Assembly (NCBI GenBank): GCA_025358515.1
Contig: JANYJG010000099.1
Span: 1-49,082 of the forward strand
From: Chloroflexota bacterium
GTDB taxonomy: Bacteria > Chloroflexota > Limnocylindria > Limnocylindrales > CSP1-4
Length of the DNA: 49,082 nt
Reading direction: 5' to 3'
Positions 38,743-47,847 of the stretch are shown piece after piece. Position numbers and translations under genes: made by a program. Below the pieces are notes generated by a model that was given only the letters and a program-made list of their open reading frames with translations, searched no databases and was not told the origin of the DNA. Within the stretch, counting starts at the first letter, position 1, and each line of letters starts with the position of its first letter.

Positions 38743-38961
38743 AAGGGTGACTTCATTTCGTGCACGGCGCAGTGCGGGTCCCCGGTCGATTCCGCTCACC
38801 CGATGAGCAACGCTGGCATTTGGGCCCGCTTCTGGCCTTGGCTGCTCACCGGGTGAGCACATGGAACGTCGTGGGCCAGTCCACGGCTCTGATTTGTCGA
38901 AACTGCTCAGATCCAGTCACAAGTTCGACCAAATGCGGGCCCCCCACGACCCGGTTGGTCG

Positions 38962-38986
38962 AACTTGCCCACCGGGTGAGCAAGTT
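38962..38986. repeat. 25-bp near-perfect inverted repeat (largest of the spacer palindromes)
   Basis: Arms of 12 bases (AACTTGCCCACC and GGTGAGCAAGTT) around a central G, with one mismatch that would be a G-U pair in RNA. It contains one copy of the 15-bp palindrome and overlaps the 12-bp inverted repeat at 38955-38966. Confidence 0.85.
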
Positions 38987-39094
38987 GGACGGTCCAACAC
39001 GCTGAAAGAGCCCCGGCATGTGTGATGTGCTCTCCCGGTGGTCGCCCCGGAGCCGCCAGGAGCCCGCAACGCCAGGTTTGTGTGGCCATCTGAG

Positions 39095-39152
39095 CAGCAG
39101 CGGCAGGATCGACAGGTGGCAGGTGGCAGGCAGCAGCGGCAGGATCGACAGG
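39095..39152 (+). repeat. 22-bp direct repeat with 36-bp period
   Basis: An identical 22-base block (starting CAGCAGCGGCAGGATC) occurs at 39095-39116 and 39131-39152, with GTGGCAG motifs between. There are only two copies and no spacer diversity, so it is not a CRISPR array. Confidence 0.9.
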
Positions 39153-39271
39153 CCTGCGTTCATGGCGACGGGCGCAAACCCTTCTCCAGTCGAGACCGGA
39201 CCTGGCGATGACTCCGGTACCATCGTCCTGCGGTCGCAAGACCATGGCATAAGGCGTGGGTTGACTGCTGC

Positions 39272-39280
39272 TGATACACT
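39272..39280 (+). promoter_or_regulatory. Extended -10 candidate for the ilvB operon leader
   Basis: TGATACACT reads as TG-n-TACACT. It would start the leader near 39287, about 48 bases before the leader ORF. A TTGACT at 39261 is too close to serve as its -35. Confidence 0.45.
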
Positions 39281-39334
39281 CGCCAAACACTGCGGGTCTA
39301 ACCACCCGAGAGCGTTAGCTACGGAGTAACCAGG

Positions 39335-39541
39335 TTGGGTCTATTCAACGCTCGGAGCCGCCGCCACGTCGCCATCCTTGTGAGGGCTGACGGTCGGCGT
39401 GTCCAGGTGCCTCTCGAAGACCTCGGCCTGGTTGACGTATCCCTCCTCGGTCTACTTAGCTCGCTTGAGCTTGGCATTGAGCACGTATTTGGGCTCATTA
39501 CCGGCTCCCGGCGGGGGACTGGACGGCGGGATCAGCGCTAG
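39335..39541 (+). CDS. Candidate leader peptide of the ilvBNC-leuAB-cimA operon
   Basis: A 68-codon ORF with a TTG start and a clean GGAG eight bases upstream. Residues 25-55 hold 16 Leu/Val/Ile in 31 positions, including SLLGLLSSLELGI. Of 12 Leu codons only one is CTG; four are CTT and two CTA, unlike the CTG/CTC-dominated neighbours. It ends 25 bases before a perfect intrinsic terminator, and the operon it precedes makes leucine, valine and isoleucine. This is the arrangement of an attenuation leader peptide. I do not recognise it as a protein family. It could instead be a small protein of unknown function. Confidence 0.62.
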   Translation: MGLFNARSRRHVAILVRADGRRVQVPLEDLGLVDVSLLGLLSSLELGIEHVFGLITGSRRGTGRRDQR

Positions 39542-39578
39542 CGGGCGCAGAACCTAGAACCACCAGAACCCTCGCCGG
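39508..39578 (+). promoter_or_regulatory. Possible antiterminator pairing in the ilvB leader
   Basis: CCGGCGGGGG (39508-39517, inside the leader ORF) can pair with CCCTCGCCGG (39569-39578) in ten consecutive pairs, one of them G-U. The second segment is the left arm and loop of the terminator hairpin, so the two structures exclude each other. A seven-pair alternative uses 39524-39530, within the footprint of a ribosome at the leader stop codon. Confidence 0.55.
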
Positions 39579-39595
39579 CGCGGCGAGGGTTTTTT
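39567..39595 (+). terminator. Intrinsic terminator (attenuator) before ilvB
   Basis: The stem CCCTCGCC (39569-39576) and GGCGAGGG (39582-39589) is perfect, extended by two A-T pairs, with a 5-nt loop and six Ts at 39590-39595. It is the only hairpin with a clear T-tract I found in the window, and it lies between the leader ORF and ilvB rather than at an operon end. Confidence 0.88.
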
Positions 39596-39665
39596 CATGA
39601 GTTTCAAGACCGACGACTTGGCAGTCACCCGGGGGGCCGGGCAGAAACCAAAAGGAGTGGCAGCG

Positions 39666-41591
39666 ATGGGCAGCACAGACGACGCCGCGGGAGGTTCGCC
39701 CGCGACTGCGACGACGCCCGCGACGGCGACGACGCCGGCGACGGCAGCGCGTTCGCGCATCAACCACATGCCCGGCGCCGGCTCCGCGCGGGCCGCGGCC
39801 ATCGAGGCCGGACGGCGAGAGATGCTGCACGAGAGCCGCCGGCTGGAGCTCAAGAGCCTCGGGGAGCGCGGCTTGAAGCGTCCCCGCATCGGTGCCGATG
39901 CAGTGTGCGAGGCGCTCCTGGCGCAGGGCGTCGACGTCATCTTCGGCTTTCCCGGCGGCGTGCTCCTGCCCCTCTACGATGTCCTCGGCGACTACCCCGA
40001 ACTTCGCCACATCCTGGTCCGCCACGAGCAGGGCGCGTCTCACGCCGCCGATGGCTACGCTCGGGCATCGGGCGACGTCGGGGTCTGCCTCGGAACCTCC
40101 GGCCCGGGGGCCACGAACCTCGTCACCGGCATCGGCAACGCCATGCTGGACTCCATCCCGATGGTCGCGATCACCGGCAACGTCGTCTCCTCCCTGCTGG
40201 GCAAGGACGCCTTCCAGGAGATCGACATCACCGGCATCACCCTTCCCTGCACCAAGCACAACTACCTGGTCCGCGATCCCAACGAAATCCCGCGCGTTTT
40301 CGCCGAAGCCTTCCACATCGCTCGGACGGGCCGTCCCGGACCGGTCCACGTGGATCTCACCAAGGACGCCCTGATGGGCGTGTGCACGGCCGAGCATCCC
40401 ACAACCGTCGATCTGCCCGGCTTCAAGCCCACTTTCGAAGGCCATCCCCGCCAGATCAAACTAGCGGCCCAAGAGATCGCCAAGGCCCAGCGCCCAGTCA
40501 TTCTGGCCGGGCACGGCGTCCTGATCTCTAACGCGACCGCCGAGCTCCTCGAATTGGCCGAGAAGGCGCAAATCCCTGTGGCGCATACGCTTCTGGGCGT
40601 TGGCGCAATGGACGAGAGGCACCCGCTCAGCCTCGGCTTCGTCGGCATGCACGGCTGGAAGCACGCCAACAAGGCGATCCAGTCGTCGGATCTGCTGATC
40701 GCGCTGGGTATGCGCTTCGACGATCGCGTGACGGGCCACGTCCCCACGTTCGCGCCCTATGCCCGGATCATCCATGTCGACATCGACCCGGCCGAGATCG
40801 GCAAGAACGTCGCCGTCGAAATCCCGATCGTGGGCGACGTCAAGCGCGTCCTGATGGCCCTCATTCCGCAGGTCGACGCGGTCGAGCCGGAGGGCCGCGC
40901 CGCATACCTGGCCGAAATCGACGGTTGGCGGGCCGAGGCCGAGACTACGCCGTGGCACGGCTCCGGGGCGTGGCGCAACGGCCAGCTCTCGGCCGACTTC
41001 GTCGTGCGAAAGATCGGCGAGGCATCCGACCACGACGCCACGCTGGTGGCCGACGTCGGTCAAAACCAGATGTGGACGGCCCGATACGGTGGGTTCCGCC
41101 GGCCCAACAGCCACATAAGTTCCGGCGGCCTGGGCACGATGGGCTATGGGCTGCCTGCGGCGATGGGCGCGGCAGTCGGCCGGCCCGACAAGGAGACCTG
41201 GGCAATAGTCGGCGACGGCGGCTTCCAGATGACCGTCCAGGAGCTCATGACTCTGGTCCAGGACCATATCCCGGTCAAGATTGCTCTGCTGGACAATCAC
41301 AAACTGGGCATGATCAGGCAGTGGCAGGAGCTCGTGTACGCTGGCAACTACCACTCGTCGCATCTTCTGGGGCCCGATTGGATGAAGCTGGCCGAGGCCT
41401 ATGGCATCCCGGCCTTCATGGCCAGCACGCCCGAGGAGGTCGAGGCGGCCATCGCCGCGGCCCGCGCCGTGGACGGTCCGGCACTAGTCAATTTCCAGAT
41501 CGCGGAAGAGCAGAACGTCTTCCCGATGATGCCCGCAGGCAAGGGCCTGTCTGATCTGCTCGAGGAACAGTTCGAGGAGCCCAAGCGATGA
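39666..41591 (+). CDS. ilvB: Acetolactate synthase, large (catalytic) subunit
   Basis: Thiamine-diphosphate enzyme joining two pyruvates, or pyruvate and 2-oxobutyrate, in the first common step of valine and isoleucine synthesis. The 641 residues include an Ala/Thr repeat-rich start (18-bp repeats), then GADAVCEALLAQGVDVIFGFPGGVLLPLYD, the catalytic Glu in RHEQGASHAADGYARASG, GTSGPGATNLVTGI, and the C-terminal ThDP motif VGDGGFQMTVQELMT. The ATG at 39666 has AAAGGAG eight bases upstream. The in-frame ATG at 39597 lies against the terminator T-tract and is not credible. It overlaps ilvN by 4 bp (ATGA). Confidence 0.96.
   Translation: MGSTDDAAGGSPATATTPATATTPATAARSRINHMPGAGSARAAAIEAGRREMLHESRRLELKSLGERGLKRPRIGADAVCEALLAQGVDVIFGFPGGVLLPLYDVLGDYPELRHILVRHEQGASHAADGYARASGDVGVCLGTSGPGATNLVTGIGNAMLDSIPMVAITGNVVSSLLGKDAFQEIDITGITLPCTKHNYLVRDPNEIPRVFAEAFHIARTGRPGPVHVDLTKDALMGVCTAEHPTTVDLPGFKPTFEGHPRQIKLAAQEIAKAQRPVILAGHGVLISNATAELLELAEKAQIPVAHTLLGVGAMDERHPLSLGFVGMHGWKHANKAIQSSDLLIALGMRFDDRVTGHVPTFAPYARIIHVDIDPAEIGKNVAVEIPIVGDVKRVLMALIPQVDAVEPEGRAAYLAEIDGWRAEAETTPWHGSGAWRNGQLSADFVVRKIGEASDHDATLVADVGQNQMWTARYGGFRRPNSHISSGGLGTMGYGLPAAMGAAVGRPDKETWAIVGDGGFQMTVQELMTLVQDHIPVKIALLDNHKLGMIRQWQELVYAGNYHSSHLLGPDWMKLAEAYGIPAFMASTPEEVEAAIAAARAVDGPALVNFQIAEEQNVFPMMPAGKGLSDLLEEQFEEPKR
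39702..39746 (+). repeat. 18-bp tandem repeat at the ilvB N-terminus
   Basis: Two 18-base units (39702-39719 and 39720-39737) and a half unit encode ATATTP-ATATTP-ATA in frame. Confidence 0.85.
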
Positions 41592-42226
41592 GCGGCACTA
41601 CCCCCGATAACGCGGCGTCGGCGCACGGCACTGCCGGGGCCCACTCCGCCGCCCCGGCCCACTCCGCCGCCCCGGCCCATACCGCCGCACCGCCGCGGAC
41701 CATGCCCGGCCACGGTGAGGCCCACCGTCATGTCCTGGTCGCGATCGTCCTGAACCGACCCGGAGTTCTCAACCGCGTGGCAAGCTTGATGCGGGCCCGC
41801 AACTTCAACATCGAGACCCTGGCCGTCAGCCACACCGATCAGCCGGACGTCAGCCGTATGACGCTCACCCTCATCGGCGACGACGTGGCGGTCGAGCAGG
41901 CCGCCAAGCAGCTGTACCGGCTCATCGATGTGCTAAAGGTCCAAGATGTCACCAGCGATCCGATCGTTGAGCACGAGATCGCGCTAATCAAGGTTCGCGC
42001 CACCGACCGCAATCGCGGCGAGGTGCTTACCATCGCGGATATGTACAAGGCCAAGGTTGTGGACCTGGCGGCCGAGTCGCTAATTGTCGAGGCGACCGGT
42101 ACGGAGGCAGAAGTGGACGCTCTGATCGCCCTCCTTCGCGGTTTTGGCATAAAGGAGCTTGTCCGCTCCGGTACCGTCGTCATGTCCCGGGGTGCCGGGT
42201 CAATCGAGGAGGCAACTAAACGATGA
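41588..42226 (+). CDS. ilvN: Acetolactate synthase, small (regulatory) subunit
   Basis: Regulatory subunit that gives feedback control, usually by valine, and raises activity. An ACT domain begins near residue 47 ([37 protein letters not shown]), followed by the IlvN C-terminal domain ([66 protein letters not shown]). About 45 Ala/His-rich residues from an 18-bp repeat (41642-41695) precede it and are unusual. It overlaps ilvB and ilvC by 4 bp each, so the three are translated as a coupled set. Confidence 0.94.
41642..41695 (+). repeat. 18-bp tandem repeat in the ilvN N-terminus
   Basis: Two perfect units of CACTCCGCCGCCCCGGCC (41642 and 41660) and a degenerate third encode HSAAPA-like hexapeptides. 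Confidence 0.88.
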
Positions 42227-43266
42227 CCGCTCGCATGTACTACGACGCAGACGCCGATCCGTCCGCCCTGGAGGGGCAGAAAATCGTCATCGTCGGCTAT
42301 GGCAGCCAGGGCCACGCCCACGCCCAGAACCTTCACGACTCCGGCTACGACGTCACCGTCGTCGAGGCCAACCCGAAGGCTCGGGCGCTAGCGGACGAGG
42401 CCGGTCTGAAGACCGCCGACATCGCCGCTGCCGTCAAGGCGGCGGACGTGATCATGATCCTGGTCCCCGACACCCTTCAGAAGATGGTGTTCGAGACCTC
42501 GATCGAGCCGAACATGCACGCCGGCCAGCTGCTCATGTTCGCCCACGGCTTCAACATCCGGTTCGATCGGATCAAGCCGGGCGAAGGCATCGACGTTGGC
42601 ATGGTCGCCCCCAAGGGCCCAGGCCACCTCGTCCGCTCCGTCTTCGAGCAGGGCGGCGGCGTTCCGGCGCTCTTCGCCGTCGAGAAAGATGCCACCGGAA
42701 CGGCTCGCGCCCGCACCCTGGCCTACGCCCGGGGCATCGGCGCCACTCGGGCCGGCGTCCTCGAGACCACCTTCAAGGAGGAGACCGAGACCGATCTCTT
42801 CGGCGAGCAGGTCGTTCTGTGCGGCGGCGTCACGAGCCTGATCAAGAACGGCTTCGAGACCCTCGTCGAGGCCGGCTACCAGCCGGAACTGGCGTACTTC
42901 GAAGTCATGCACGAGCTCAAGCTGATCGTGGACTTGATGTACCGCGGCGGCATGAACTTCATGCGCTTCTCAGTCAGCGATACCGCCGAGTACGGTGACT
43001 ACGTCTCCGGCCCGCGCATCGTGGACGCCCGCGTCCGCGACGAGATGCGCAAGGTCCTACACGAGATCCAGGATGGCACCTTCGCCGCGAACTGGATCGC
43101 CGAGAACGAAGCGGGCCAGCCCAATTTCAAGAAGATGCGCGAAGCGGACCGCGACCACCAGATCGAGCAGGTCGGGGCCCGACTACGCAAGGCCATGCCG
43201 TTCCTCAACCCCGTCGAAGTCGTGGCCGGGCAGCCACAAGCGGCGGCCGAGAAGCCCAGGAGCTAG
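42223..43266 (+). CDS. ilvC: Ketol-acid reductoisomerase (class I)
   Basis: IlvC isomerises and reduces acetolactate or acetohydroxybutyrate, the second common step. The 347 residues show the cofactor loop [55 protein letters not shown] and the C-terminal [39 protein letters not shown] block with acidic metal ligands. Length is that of the short class I form. The ATG at 42223 overlaps the ilvN stop. Confidence 0.96.
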
Positions 43267-43283
43267 GCCCCAGGGGGAGTCAT

Positions 43284-44918
43284 ATGAGCGAGCACGCATC
43301 CGCGGACGCCAACGTCCGGATCTTCGATACCACTCTCCGTGACGGCGAGCAGGCGCCCGGCGCCGGCCTGACCGTCGCGGAGAAGATCGAGGTCGCCCGC
43401 CAGCTGGTCCGCCTCAACGTCGACGTCATCGAGGCCGGCTTCCCGGCCAGTTCGCCCGGCGAGTTCGAGGCGGTCCAGACCATCGCCCGCGAGACAAAGG
43501 GCGTGGCCGTGGCGGCCCTTGCCCGCTGCAAGGACGGAGATCCGCAGCGCGCGGTGGAGGCTCTTCGGGTTGCCGAGCGGCCCCATCTCCACGTCTTCAT
43601 CGCCAGCAGCGACATCCACCTCAAGCACAAGCTGCGCATCTCACGTGACGAGGCGCTGCTCGCAGCTTCCAAGTGGATCGCCTACGGCCGCAAGGCTCTG
43701 GGGCCCGATGCGGAGATCGAGTTCAGCGCCGAGGATGCCACTCGGACCGACATCGATTTCCTGATGAAGCTGTACGAGGCCGCGGTCGATGCGGGTGCGA
43801 GCACGCTCAATATCCCCGATACCGTCGGGTATGCCATTCCGGTCGAGTTTGGCAAACTTGTAGGCCGGGTCGTGGATCGTTTCGGCTTGGCCGCCACGGT
43901 CTCCGTCCATTGCCACAACGACCTGGGTCTGGCCACAGCCAACACCCTGGCGGCGCTGCAGAACGGAGCCCGCCAGCTGGAGGTCTGCGTCAACGGCCTG
44001 GGCGAGCGAGCCGGCAACGCCTCGCTTGAGGAAGTGGTCATGGGCATCAGGACCCGTCCCACCCAGTTCCCCAACCTTTCGACGCGGGTCGTTTCTGAGC
44101 AGATCACGGCTGCCAGCCGGTTGGTCAGCTACCTGACCGGCTTCGCCGTGCAGCCGAATAAGGCGATCGTCGGCGGCAACGCCTTCGCTCACGAATCCGG
44201 CATCCACCAGGACGGCGTGATCAAGAACCCGCTGACCTACGAGATCATGACCCCGCAGTCCGTGGGTTTGTCGGGCAGCCAGCTGACGATCGGCAAGCTT
44301 TCGGGCCGGCGCGGCCTGCAGGGCAAGCTTCGAGAGCTCGGTCATGACGTCCAAGGGGAGGCCCTAGACGCGATCTACGCCCAGGTCATCGCTCTCGCGG
44401 ACGTCAAGAAGGACGTTACGGACGCGGACATTCTGGCCATCGTGGAGCAGGGCGCGACCGAAACCGCTCAGGCCATCTGCCTACAGGGTTGGAGCGTGAC
44501 CAGCTCTCATGGCGGTCGGGCCATGGGCATGATTTCTCTCAAGATCGGCGATGAGTCGCGGGCGGTTGAGGCGACCGGCAACGGTCCGGTGGATGCCCTG
44601 TATGGGGCCATCGATCAGGCCGTCGAAGCGGTCCTGGGCTGGAAGCCGGTCCTGGCCGAGTACGAGATCAAGGCCGTTTCCGCCGGTGAGGACGCCCAGG
44701 GTCAGGTAGTGGTCCGAGTCCGCCGCTCAACCGAGGAAGGCCGCGACGCATTTGTGGCAACCGGCCACGGCCTGTCAACGAACATCATCGAGGCCTCCGT
44801 GGCCGCGTACCTGGCCGGCGCCGAGAAGCTCCAGCAGGACGCCATCGCCAAGTCCAAATTGCTCGAGGCGGCCCTTGCGGCCGGTGAGCAGCCCGAGAAG
44901 GTTGAGAAGCTTCCGTGA
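43284..44918 (+). CDS. leuA: 2-isopropylmalate synthase
   Basis: LeuA joins acetyl-CoA to 2-oxoisovalerate at the entry to leucine synthesis. The 544 residues start with [30 protein letters not shown]. They carry the metal site [36 protein letters not shown] and [13 protein letters not shown], and end with the allosteric domain ([21 protein letters not shown] onward), which normally binds leucine. Start ATG at 43284, 17 bases after ilvC. It differs clearly from cimA further on, which has a related catalytic domain. Confidence 0.95.
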
Positions 44919-46132
44919 CAGAACCTGCCAACCAGCCGACGGCCGATGCCCCCGGGTTCCCCCGCATCGGCTTCAACCTGGTGTTCGTTCCCGGCGATGG
45001 GATCGGGCCCGAGGTAATCGCCGCCGGCCGGCGCGTTCTCGAGGCGACCGGCCGGCTCTTCGGCTTTCGTTTTGAGTGGCAGGAGATCCTGATCGGCGGC
45101 GTGGCCATCGATGCCTACGGCGTGCCGATGCGCGACGAGGATCTGGCCGCCTGCCGGGATGCGGACGCGGTCTACTTCGGCGCCATCGGCGATCCCAAGT
45201 ACGACGATCCCACGGCCACGGTTCGACCGGAGCAGGCGCTGCTGGGCCTGCGCAAAGGTCTGGGCCTGTACGCGAACCTGCGGCCGGTCACCGTTCAGCC
45301 CGTCCTGCGGGCTAGCTCCCCAGTGCGCGAGTCGCTGCTCGAAGGCGTGGACATGATGATCGTCCGCGAGTTGACGGGCGGCCTCTACTTCGGCAAGCCA
45401 TCCGGTCTGAGAGCGGGCCCGGCGGGCCGTGAGGCGGTCGACACCCTGATCTATAGCGAGGAAGAGATTCGTCGCGTCGTCAGGCTCGCCTTCGAACTGG
45501 CCCGCGGCCGCCGCAAAAAGCTGACCAGCGTGGACAAGGCCAATATCCTGTCGTCCAGCCGGCTGTGGCGGACGATCGTGGAAGAGGTCCGGCCCGAATA
45601 TCCTGACGTCACCGTCGAGCATCGGCTCGTTGACGCCTGCGCCATGACCCTCATCCAGCGCCCCGCGGTATTCGACGTGCTGGTGACGGAGAATCTGTTT
45701 GGCGACATCCTGTCCGACGAGGCCAGCGTCCTGGCCGGTTCGCTGGGGATGCTGCCCTCCGCATCCATCGGCGAGCGGCAAACGGCCCACGGCCTGCACG
45801 GCATGTACGAGCCGATCCACGGTTCCGCGCCGGATATCGCGGGCAAGGACATCGCCAATCCCCTGGCTGCGATCCTGTCCGGAGCGATGATGCTGCGCTG
45901 GTCGCTGGGTCAGAACGCGGCCGCGGTGGCGATCGAGCGGGCCGTAACCGCGGTCCTGACGGCCGGCTATCGCACCGCGGATCTCCTGTCGGCGACGGGC
46001 GACGCCACCGGCCTGCGCCCAGTCGGCACTCAAGCCATGGGAGATGCGGTTGTGGCCGCTATCGAGAACCAGGAACACACCGCCGCCGAAGACGGCGAAA
46101 GAGCGACTGCGCTCAGCGGCGGCTCACGGTGA
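44915..46132 (+). CDS. leuB: 3-isopropylmalate dehydrogenase
   Basis: NAD-dependent oxidative decarboxylase of leucine synthesis, and expected to act on 3-methylmalate in the citramalate route. The 405 residues show [16 protein letters not shown], the [13 protein letters not shown] loop, [36 protein letters not shown] and [24 protein letters not shown], then [21 protein letters not shown]. The C-terminus is about 40 residues longer than usual. GTG at 44915 overlaps the leuA stop (GTGA). Confidence 0.95.
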
Positions 46133-47847
46133 GCGCAAACATGAGCAACAAGATCATCCTGTACGACACGACGCTCCGCGACGGCACTCAGCGGGAAGGC
46201 CTGGTCGTCTCGCTGGCGGACAAGATCAAGGTCGCGCGGCGGCTCGATGAGTTCGGCTTCGCCTACGTCGAGGGCGGCTGGCCCGGCTCGAATCCCAAGG
46301 ACGCCGATTTTTTCGCCGCTGCCAAGTCGATCGCCTGGAAGAACACCAAGCTGGCGGCCTTCGGTTCCACGCGCCATCGCAGCAACCGGGCCGAGTCCGA
46401 CCCGAACCTCCTGGCCCTCGTGGCGGCCGAGACGCCAGTCGTCACGATCTTCGGCAAGAGTTGGCTGCTCCACGTCCGCGACGTGTTGGGAGCCACGCCG
46501 GAAGAGAACCTGGCCATGGTCGGGGACTCGGTTGCCTTTCCGGCGGCCGCCGGCCGGGAGATGATCTACGACGCCGAACACTACTTCGACGGCTACAAGG
46601 ACGATTCCGCCTATGCGCTGGCGACTCTGCGTGCGGCCCGGGACGGCGGCGCCCGAACCCTCGTCCTGTGCGACACCAACGGCGGCACCCTGACCGACGA
46701 ACTGGTGGAGATCGTGCGGGCGACGCGGGCCGCCCTCGACGGCGATGACGCGGCCACTGCGCCCGTCGTATGGGGCATCCATTGCCACAATGACTCGGAG
46801 CTGGCGGTCGCCAACTCCCTGGCCGCCATCGCCAATGGCGTGCGCCACGTCCAGGGCACCATCAACGGCTACGGCGAGCGGTGTGGCAACGCCAACCTGA
46901 TCAGCATCCTGGCCGACCTGGAACTCAAGACTAAATTCGAGCCCGTGCCATCGGGCCGCCTGGCCGAGTTGACGGACCTCTCTCGTTACGTTGCGGAAAT
47001 AGTCAACATCGCCCCCGATGACCACCAGCCGTACGTCGGCCGGTCGGCCTTCGCCCATAAGGGCGGCGTCCACGGTTCCGCCACGGCGCGCGTACAGCGC
47101 TCCTACCAGCACATCGACCCGAGCTTTGTCGGCAACGTCAGCCGCCTCGTGGTCAGCGAGCTCGGAGGCAAGGCCAACACCCAGCTGCGTGCCGAACAGC
47201 TCGGCCACCGGCTCGACGGCGTGGACTCGAAGGCCCTCAGCCAGGTCATCAAGCAGCTCGAGGCGGACGGCCTCGCCTTCGAGGGCGCGGAAGCATCGTT
47301 CGAGCTGCTGGTCAAGCGCCACCGCCCGGGCTACGAGCTGCCCTTCGTCCTGTGCGATTACACCGTCCTGGTGGAGCAGCGCGGCGGGGCCGAGTTGCTC
47401 GCCGAGGCCACGGTCAAGGTCGAGGTGGCGGGCGAGGTGCTCCACACCGCCGCCGATGGCAACGGCCCGGTAAACGCCCTCGATAGCGCTCTCCGCAAGG
47501 CCCTTGGCGCGTTCTACCCGGAGCTGGACGCCGTCCACCTCGTCGACTACAAGGTCCGCATCCTCGACAGTGGCGAAGCGACGGGCGCCCAGACGCGAGT
47601 CATCATCGACTCGTCCAACGGGCCGCTGGAGTGGTCGACGATGGGCAGCGGCACGAACATAATTGCGGCCTCGTGCCAGGCGTTGTGCGACTCGCTCGAG
47701 TACGCCATCTGGAAGACGGGCGCGGAAGTGCGGCGACGCGACGAGCGTCATTTCACGACCGCTGTAACCACAAACGGCGGAACGGGCACCGGCGGAACGG
47801 CGCCCGCCGGAACGGCGCCCGCCGGCCCAATCACGCGTCCCGAGTAG
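46129..47847 (+). CDS. cimA: (R)-citramalate synthase
   Basis: CimA condenses pyruvate with acetyl-CoA to citramalate, the start of the threonine-independent isoleucine route. The 572 residues have [49 protein letters not shown], the [19 protein letters not shown] stretch typical of CimA rather than Leu[21 protein letters not shown], and a C-terminal regulatory domain ([24 protein letters not shown]). The GTG at 46129 overlaps the leuB stop; an ATG at 46141 is possible. The tail carries a GTAPA repeat from a 15-bp duplication (47794-47823). No threonine deaminase gene is present in the window. Confidence 0.94.
47794..47823 (+). repeat. 15-bp tandem repeat at the cimA C-terminus
   Basis: GGAACGGCGCCCGCC occurs twice without mismatch, encoding [10 protein letters not shown] in frame near the end of CimA. 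Confidence 0.92.

Follow-up and report, generated by a model that had tools for sequence, protein, structure and literature searches.

Leader ORF and operon

The 49,082-nucleotide (nt) stretch analyzed here (contig JANYJG010000099.1 of the Chloroflexota bacterium assembly GCA_025358515.1, an incomplete draft genome of 2.78 Mb; the stretch as a whole is called the window) carries a branched-chain amino acid operon, ilvB-ilvN-ilvC-leuA-leuB-cimA, preceded by an open reading frame (ORF) of 68 codons and an intrinsic terminator. Codons, ORF, helices, and gene context together suggest that this leader is a ribosome-mediated transcription attenuator answering to the charging of branched-chain tRNAs (probability about 0.9), largely as had been proposed in a sequence-only reading of the window. 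The features on which the argument turns are as follows.

39323..39326, + strand: GGAG, likely ribosome-binding site of the leader (from the sequence; TACGGAG recurs in most same-genus loci)
39335..39541, + strand: leader ORF, 68 codons, TTG start, TAG stop (homologous ORF in relatives)
39359..39412, + strand: N-terminal segment, approximately codons 9 to 26, RRHVAILVRADGRRVQVP (protein-level conservation, ordinary codons)
39434..39499, + strand: control region, approximately codons 34 to 55, in which Leu, Ile, and Val are encoded largely by rare synonyms, with CTC-ATT at its end (codon bias across 38 leaders)
39501..39522, + strand: hairpin 1:2, the putative anti-antiterminator, CCGGCTCCC-GGC-GGGGG-A-CTGG, inside the ORF (window fold; compensatory changes between two families)
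39508..39522, + strand: 5' arm of the predicted antiterminator (core pairs in relatives; inner extension covaries)
39563..39578, + strand: 3' arm of the predicted antiterminator, of which 39567-39577 doubles as the terminator 5' arm (pairing in relatives)
39567..39595, + strand: intrinsic terminator hairpin and T-run (pairing and compensatory changes in relatives)
39666..41591, + strand: ilvB, acetolactate synthase large subunit, first gene of the operon under the proposed control (TIGR00118 above cut-off)
41588..47847, + strand: ilvN, ilvC, leuA, leuB, and cimA (ORF table and NCBIfam names)

The TTG-initiated ORF had been read from the window alone, and it is there as described, with its stop codon at 39539-39541. 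Its middle is rich in Leu, Ile, and Val (16 of 31 residues at codons 25 to 55), and the reported skew among Leu codons is real: CTT and CTA account for 6 of 12, versus 29 of 241 across the operon's six genes (with the start codon excluded, CTC 5, CTT 4, CTA 2, and CTG 1). The control region closes with the CTC-ATT pair at 39494-39499. Relatives were collected with tblastn anchors, which gave 111 ilvB loci and, after removal of identical upstream ends, 96 nonidentical upstream regions; a strict hairpin-plus-T-run pattern matched 51 of these and missed most distant Dehalococcoidia-type loci as well as some close ones (e.g., L008, L017, and L037), which a looser test or the covariance model described below found later. 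We read 50 leader ORFs and aligned 38 from the window's family. In these 38 the start column holds TTG (25), GTG (9), or ATG (4) and nothing else, and lengths run from 61 to 76 codons with a median of 68. Conservation of the ORF reaches well beyond these loci: a leader protein profile finds homologues in 82 of 126 genomes of the order at an expectation value (E) of ≤0.01, 81 of them at ≤4.9e-6, with none from the sister family among the matches listed. The second match in the window's own genome scores just E 0.196, giving no paralogue there.

Control codons and constraint on the leader

If the leader senses branched-chain tRNAs, the codons of the control region should stand out, and an alignment in relatives bears this out: the Leu, Ile, and Val positions are conserved and carry a strong bias toward rare codons. 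We took alignment columns 44 to 66 as the control region and simulated the expectation from each locus's own ilvB usage, treating loci as independent although they are related; the test used the 38 leaders, handled 8 sister-family leaders apart, and was run without L018, L022, and L042 (missed by the text pattern) and L063 (nonhomologous, excluded by hand). GTA makes up 57 of 91 Val codons (expected, 0.6; simulated maximum, 4), ATT makes up 56 of 90 Ile codons (expected, 3.1; maximum, 12), and CTT plus CTA make up 99 of 269 Leu codons (expected, 8.4; maximum, 20), while CTG supplies just 25 of the 269 where 129 would be expected. Columns 5 to 33 of the same leaders show ordinary usage (GTA, 0/170; ATT, 4/36; CTT plus CTA, 7/83). 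The GTA bias is found in the 14 same-genus loci (38/44) and in the remaining 24 (19/47), and the last control position is ATT in 34 of 38 leaders. CTC and CTT jointly account for 237 of the 269 Leu codons; tRNA-Leu GAG, which should read both, and tRNA-Val TAC, which should read GTA, were each found once among the genome's tRNAs, and tRNA-Ile GAT is absent from the tRNAs found in the incomplete draft.

Selection on the ORF was gauged by simple pairwise counting of the nonsynonymous-to-synonymous ratio (dN/dS) and the proportion of synonymous differences (pS). In N-terminal columns 11 to 29, dN/dS is 0.37 with a pS of 0.47 across the 38 leaders; among the 14 same-genus leaders the segment's dN/dS is 0.24, with pS at 0.39 to 0.47 across both sets. 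The control columns give 0.48 and 0.49, respectively. The N-terminal segment thus appears to be conserved as protein, and one may ask whether it does anything beyond being translated. The codons for Thr-Gly-Ser-Arg-Arg-Glu behave differently: their pS is 0.042 versus 0.46 to 0.51 elsewhere in the 38 leaders, approximately tenfold less silent change, and these same codons double as the loop-side arms of hairpin 1:2 and as the antiterminator arm.

The peptide itself resembles nothing to which we give weight. The window's leader has a single Pfam match (E 5.5); the 38 leaders have scattered single matches in Pfam and NCBIfam, the best being 0.0042 (YukD, in 2 of 38) and 0.011; and the best PDB match (0.027) covers just 21 residues of a surface-layer protein. 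A structure model, with two short strands (residues 12 to 16 and 22 to 26) and a helix (37 to 56), is too weak for a fold search (mean predicted local distance difference test [pLDDT] score, 59; predicted template modeling [pTM] score, 0.26).

Terminator, antiterminator, and hairpin 1:2

Pairing was assessed on alignment A1, which has 49 rows (L029, cut by a contig end, and L063 were left out); the rows are related, so shuffle results are not to be taken as probabilities. The perfect hairpin followed by six Ts at 39567-39595, lying between the leader and ilvB, is confirmed. All 480 cells of terminator 3:4 are paired, and compensatory changes are present: both sides differ at 4 of the 10 pairs, a number that 1 shuffle in 500 attains, and slid versions are at most 61% paired. 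Variation in the stem is limited to the outer pairs and one inner pair, at which both left-arm bases still pair with the antiterminator's G; this restriction fits a left arm that has two partners.

The second partner would be the antiterminator arm inside the ORF, so that antiterminator and terminator share the latter's 5' arm. The proposed ten-base pairing of 39508-39517 with 39569-39578 is present (counting G-U pairs) and recurs in relatives, and it is continued inward by 39519-39522 (CTGG) with 39563-39566 (CCAG). In A1, antiterminator 2:3 has 87.5% of its cells paired, versus at most 53% when slid, and each of the six central pairs (columns 17 to 22 with 91 to 96) is intact in at least 47 of the 48 rows; RNAalifold, run on the alignment ending at region 3, recovers the 2:3 core alone. 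The inward extension forms in 49 of 49 rows when RNA ending at region 3 is folded, and its sequence differs between groups (CTGG/CCAG, CCTG/CAGG, CTGA/TCAG, and others). We dealt the antiterminator 3' pieces anew among loci and compared mean duplex energies: 36 unique pairs gave -5.20 versus a re-dealt mean of -3.75 (standard deviation, 0.22), and 17 thinned representatives gave -5.55 versus -3.82 (0.39), with none of 5,000 deals as good in either case. This covariation of the inner extension is the best evidence for the predicted antiterminator that is independent of the terminator.

The second pairing segment fared less well. This segment, 39524-39530, can indeed form seven pairs with 39571-39577 (G-U counted), but it is not conserved; its exact sequence, CGGCGGG, occurs in one other row (L007) of the 49. 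The alternative-pairing scheme stands as regards the antiterminator arm, and the competitor of that arm is a hairpin within the ORF (39501-39522), which had been overlooked. This hairpin 1:2, with 81.8% of its cells paired, is near enough to the control codons to be covered by a ribosome stalled there. At 39530-39560 the window also has a small hairpin (AGCGC-TAGC-GGGCGC type) whose loop or stem includes the stop codon of the leader, and many relatives have GC-rich repeats at the equivalent position.

The stalled state was modeled by folding RNA that stops at region 3 with a ribosome footprint of 15 nt from the Leu codon; the antiterminator then has at least 5 pairs in the minimum free energy (MFE) structure at 46 of 49 loci; with the stall one codon earlier, it does so at 49 of 49. 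For the complete leader without a ribosome, the terminator is preferred at equilibrium in 46 of 49 rows.

Distribution and the sister family

A covariance model (R1) matches 94 of the order's 126 genomes at E of ≤1e-7 (window's family, 80/107; sister family, 14/19), a count made by hand; the same genomes supplied most of the A1 sequences. Across 301 genomes sampled from the phylum, none outside the order reaches this threshold. ilvB adjoins the R1 match in 17 of 17 checked loci with E of ≤1e-7 (25 loci were fetched) and also in G163, which has the nearest match outside the order (1.3e-7). At this G163 locus (L124, G163:C15:14900-17700), a 26-codon ORF, MRQLPARDLVPLAFLLCLPGAGARAS, lies at 631-711 with GTA and CTT codons and is followed by a terminator; it is possibly a short form of the same device elsewhere in the phylum. 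Seven weaker R1 matches (E 8.1e-7 to 5.8e-5) were set aside as unrelated terminators because none of them is at ilvB. We also noted, at about 740-880 of L128 (G056:C4:114600-117500), a small ORF, MTFGLPLPILIPAPLE..., that precedes a hairpin with a T-run; the long ORF downstream looks aminotransferase-like by eye.

In the sister family, 39-codon leaders (8 loci read) occupy the same place with the same three helices, although they are unrelated to the window's leader and have no N-terminal part; they end Leu-Ile-(Gln/Arg)-Pro-(Arg/Lys)-Arg-Gly-stop. Their control codons are biased in the same direction relative to ilvB: ATT, 21/27 versus 88/325; CTT plus CTA, 20/59 versus 69/426; and GTA, 5/23 versus 15/368.

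Predicted promoter and neighboring genes

39272..39280, + strand: predicted extended -10 element, TG-A-TACACT (motif count in 38 loci; alignment by eye)

The -10-like TACACT (39275-39280) has a TG upstream of it and is 60 nt away from the start codon of the leader that follows. Among the 38 loci, 35 have TA[CG][AG]CT in the 70 nt before their leader start; shuffling gives a mean of 1.3 such loci and a maximum of 5. A strict two-hexamer promoter scan of 38800-40000 returned nothing; the same scan also missed the 39567 terminator. A separate promoter would have little space in the sister family, where 8 of 9 loci have just 21 to 25 nt between the T-run and the ilvB ATG. A -10-like box ends 6 to 10 nt before the leader start in L027, L028, L030, L031, L066, L068, L069, and L070 of the sister family, and likewise in L023, L045, L051, and L054; given this spacing, these leaders may be translated from leaderless RNA.

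Downstream, neighboring genes from ilvN to cimA share 4-base overlaps, except for a gap of 17 bases between ilvC and leuA. leuA passes one curated NCBIfam cut-off (NF002086) and narrowly misses TIGR00973, and after cimA comes a prephenate-dehydratase-like gene that scores below its family cut-offs.

DISCUSSION

Comparison among relatives points to a conserved ORF that is translated, as its conservation suggests, with codons for the operon's product amino acids; to rare codons confined to the control region; to RNA arms with almost no silent change; and to three helices that relatives share, at a site upstream of ilvB. From these we infer the start site, ribosome stalling, termination, read-through, and the amino acids that count. 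Transcription would begin upstream of the leader ORF. When Leu-, Ile-, or Val-tRNA runs short, the ribosome would slow at the rare control codons; halted at CTC-ATT (39494-39499), it would cover the 5' arm of hairpin 1:2 and free 39508-39522 to pair with the terminator's left arm, letting RNA polymerase continue into ilvB-cimA. With charged tRNA plentiful, the ribosome would reach the stop codon (39539-39541), hairpin 1:2 could close behind it, and the terminator would form.

Several results weigh against attenuation of this kind. Even when a stalled ribosome is modeled, the terminator is the preferred equilibrium structure of the complete leader in 49 of 49 rows, so the switch must be kinetic, as is assumed for other attenuators; equilibrium folding alone does not predict it, and the case for the mechanism depends on timing and on what comparison among relatives shows. 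In RNA ending at region 3 without a ribosome, 1:2 forms in 2 of 49 rows and 2:3 in 44, and a composition shuffle does not discriminate, region 3 finding an upstream partner in 787 of 980 shuffled sequences and at 42 of 49 real loci. The antiterminator core covaries little (2 pairs, a number reached by 57 of 500 shuffles), and its pair 23-90 is missing from 37 of 48 rows. In hairpin 1:2 the outer pairs are broken in 20 and 27 of 48 rows; its number of covarying pairs is attained by 292 of 500 shuffles, and its covarying cells mostly reflect one split between the two families. Among genomes of the order, 32 of 126 have no R1 match at E of ≤1e-7. L063 (the same locus as L131), a second ilvB copy in draft G100, which also has an ordinary one, carries a terminator without a homologous ORF, from decay, another species, or a different leader. 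Finally, the Streptomyces coelicolor ilvB leader looks similar, yet in the available portion of PMC1262725 codon changes there had no effect and it did not behave like a classical attenuator.

Three other explanations were considered. The ORF could be an ordinary small-protein gene with its own terminator, with ilvB expressed from another promoter or by random read-through and the peptide acting in trans. A protein-conserved N-terminal segment, a length of 61 to 76 codons, and a terminator directly after the ORF would suit this, but it accounts neither for rare codons restricted to the control region, nearly silent RNA arms, and a covarying antiterminator, nor for a sister family with unrelated 39-codon leaders in the same place with the same helices, where the distance from T-run to ilvB is so short; we consider it improbable. 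T-boxes and ligand riboswitches control branched-chain genes in other bacteria, and such an element could govern the terminator directly, the ORF being incidental. The portions available of PMC10272879 and PMC5794164 name ppGpp (guanosine tetraphosphate) riboswitches and T-boxes. T-box matches below the cut-off do occur elsewhere in 40 of 61 genomes of the order, none of them in the sister family among the matches listed (one, at G000:C65:28418-28729, scores 65.2 bits against a cut-off of 93, E 7.2e-14). In the window, however, Rfam 15 finds no family at gathering scores; at E up to 10, 39200-39700 gives weak matches to Leu_leader, rnk_leader, and int-alpA and none to the T-box (RF00230), the Leu_leader match (RF00512) reaching 19.3 bits at E 0.16 where the cut-off is 50. 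Direct RNA control would also leave the codon bias and the conserved reading frame unexplained, and we give it almost no chance.

The leader could, alternatively, be a working attenuator that responds chiefly to the sequence of its nascent peptide, as an arrest peptide, rather than to tRNA charging. The conserved N-terminal segment precedes the last Leu codon by 26 to 41 residues (median, 34), a span similar to that of the ribosome exit tunnel. Residues near the presumed stall site nevertheless vary (L/V/F/G/S/A at alignment columns 61 to 63), the sister family has no N-terminal segment, and an arrest peptide has no need of rare synonyms, all of which makes this highly improbable. A two-input attenuator, in which rare-codon sensing is combined with the N-terminal segment acting as a nascent chain, is a tentative idea that we think unlikely, if less far-fetched. 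With the ribosome at the last Leu-Ile codons, the segment would stand 26 to 41 residues from the peptidyl-transferase center, near the tunnel exit, where its folding, or its capture by a factor (possibly an operon product), could lengthen or release the stall. If this were true, the N-terminal segment would have been grafted as a module onto an older, short attenuator, which survives in the sister family in its unextended form.

Attenuation sensed through tRNA charging, the reading we prefer, has clear counterparts. In the enterobacterial leu, ilvGMEDA, and ilvBN leaders, ribosomes stall at control codons that are biased among synonyms, and alternative hairpins decide the outcome; the Chloroflexota leader would share stalling, alternative hairpins, and synonym bias with them, but it belongs to a different phylum, its ORF is much longer, and both arms of its 1:2 hairpin lie inside the ORF. 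Those leaders are listed in the available part of PMC1183508, and leader-peptide attenuation of ilv/leu genes is described, as far as the available portions go, in Corynebacterium, other actinobacteria, staphylococci, and enterobacteria (PMC11857589, PMC10272879, PMC1262725, PMC5794164, PMC2965389, and PMC1183508). The Corynebacterium ilvBNC leader (ilvB-II motif), in the accessible text of PMC11857589 and PMC10272879, likewise has a branched-chain-rich ORF before ilvB and anti-antiterminator, antiterminator, and terminator hairpins, once per genome. Its peptide is usually 15 to 17 residues, whereas here there are 61 to 76 codons with a conserved N-terminal segment (39 in the sister family); its start is near-leaderless, which here appears so in some loci only; and there is no sequence match at the Rfam level. 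By description, from the part of PMC5794164 at hand, the Staphylococcus aureus ilvD leader is similarly Leu-rich and precedes a branched-chain operon with a terminator, but gene order and lineage differ. The ilvB-OMG RNA motif, compared by its description in the available sections of PMC10272879 only, is linked to ilvB, is said to be found in various phyla, and has a probable short branched-chain-rich ORF; overlap with Chloroflexota members is possible, and Rfam 15 has no ilvB family matching here. Lineage, a long three-part ORF, and RNA arms inside that ORF set the present leader apart from these attenuators. No description of leader peptides or attenuation in Chloroflexi/Chloroflexota was found in open-licence PMC papers, in line with the suspicion voiced in the sequence-only reading.

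Attenuation here would extend control by leader peptides to a deep phylum, most of which is uncultured. The available part of PMC1183508 contains the idea that the choice of control codons favors sensitive isoacceptors, and the GTA/ATT/CTT pattern, in genomes that hardly use these codons, would be a clean natural test of it. A long leader that seems partly conserved as protein also asks whether attenuator peptides can act beyond being translated.

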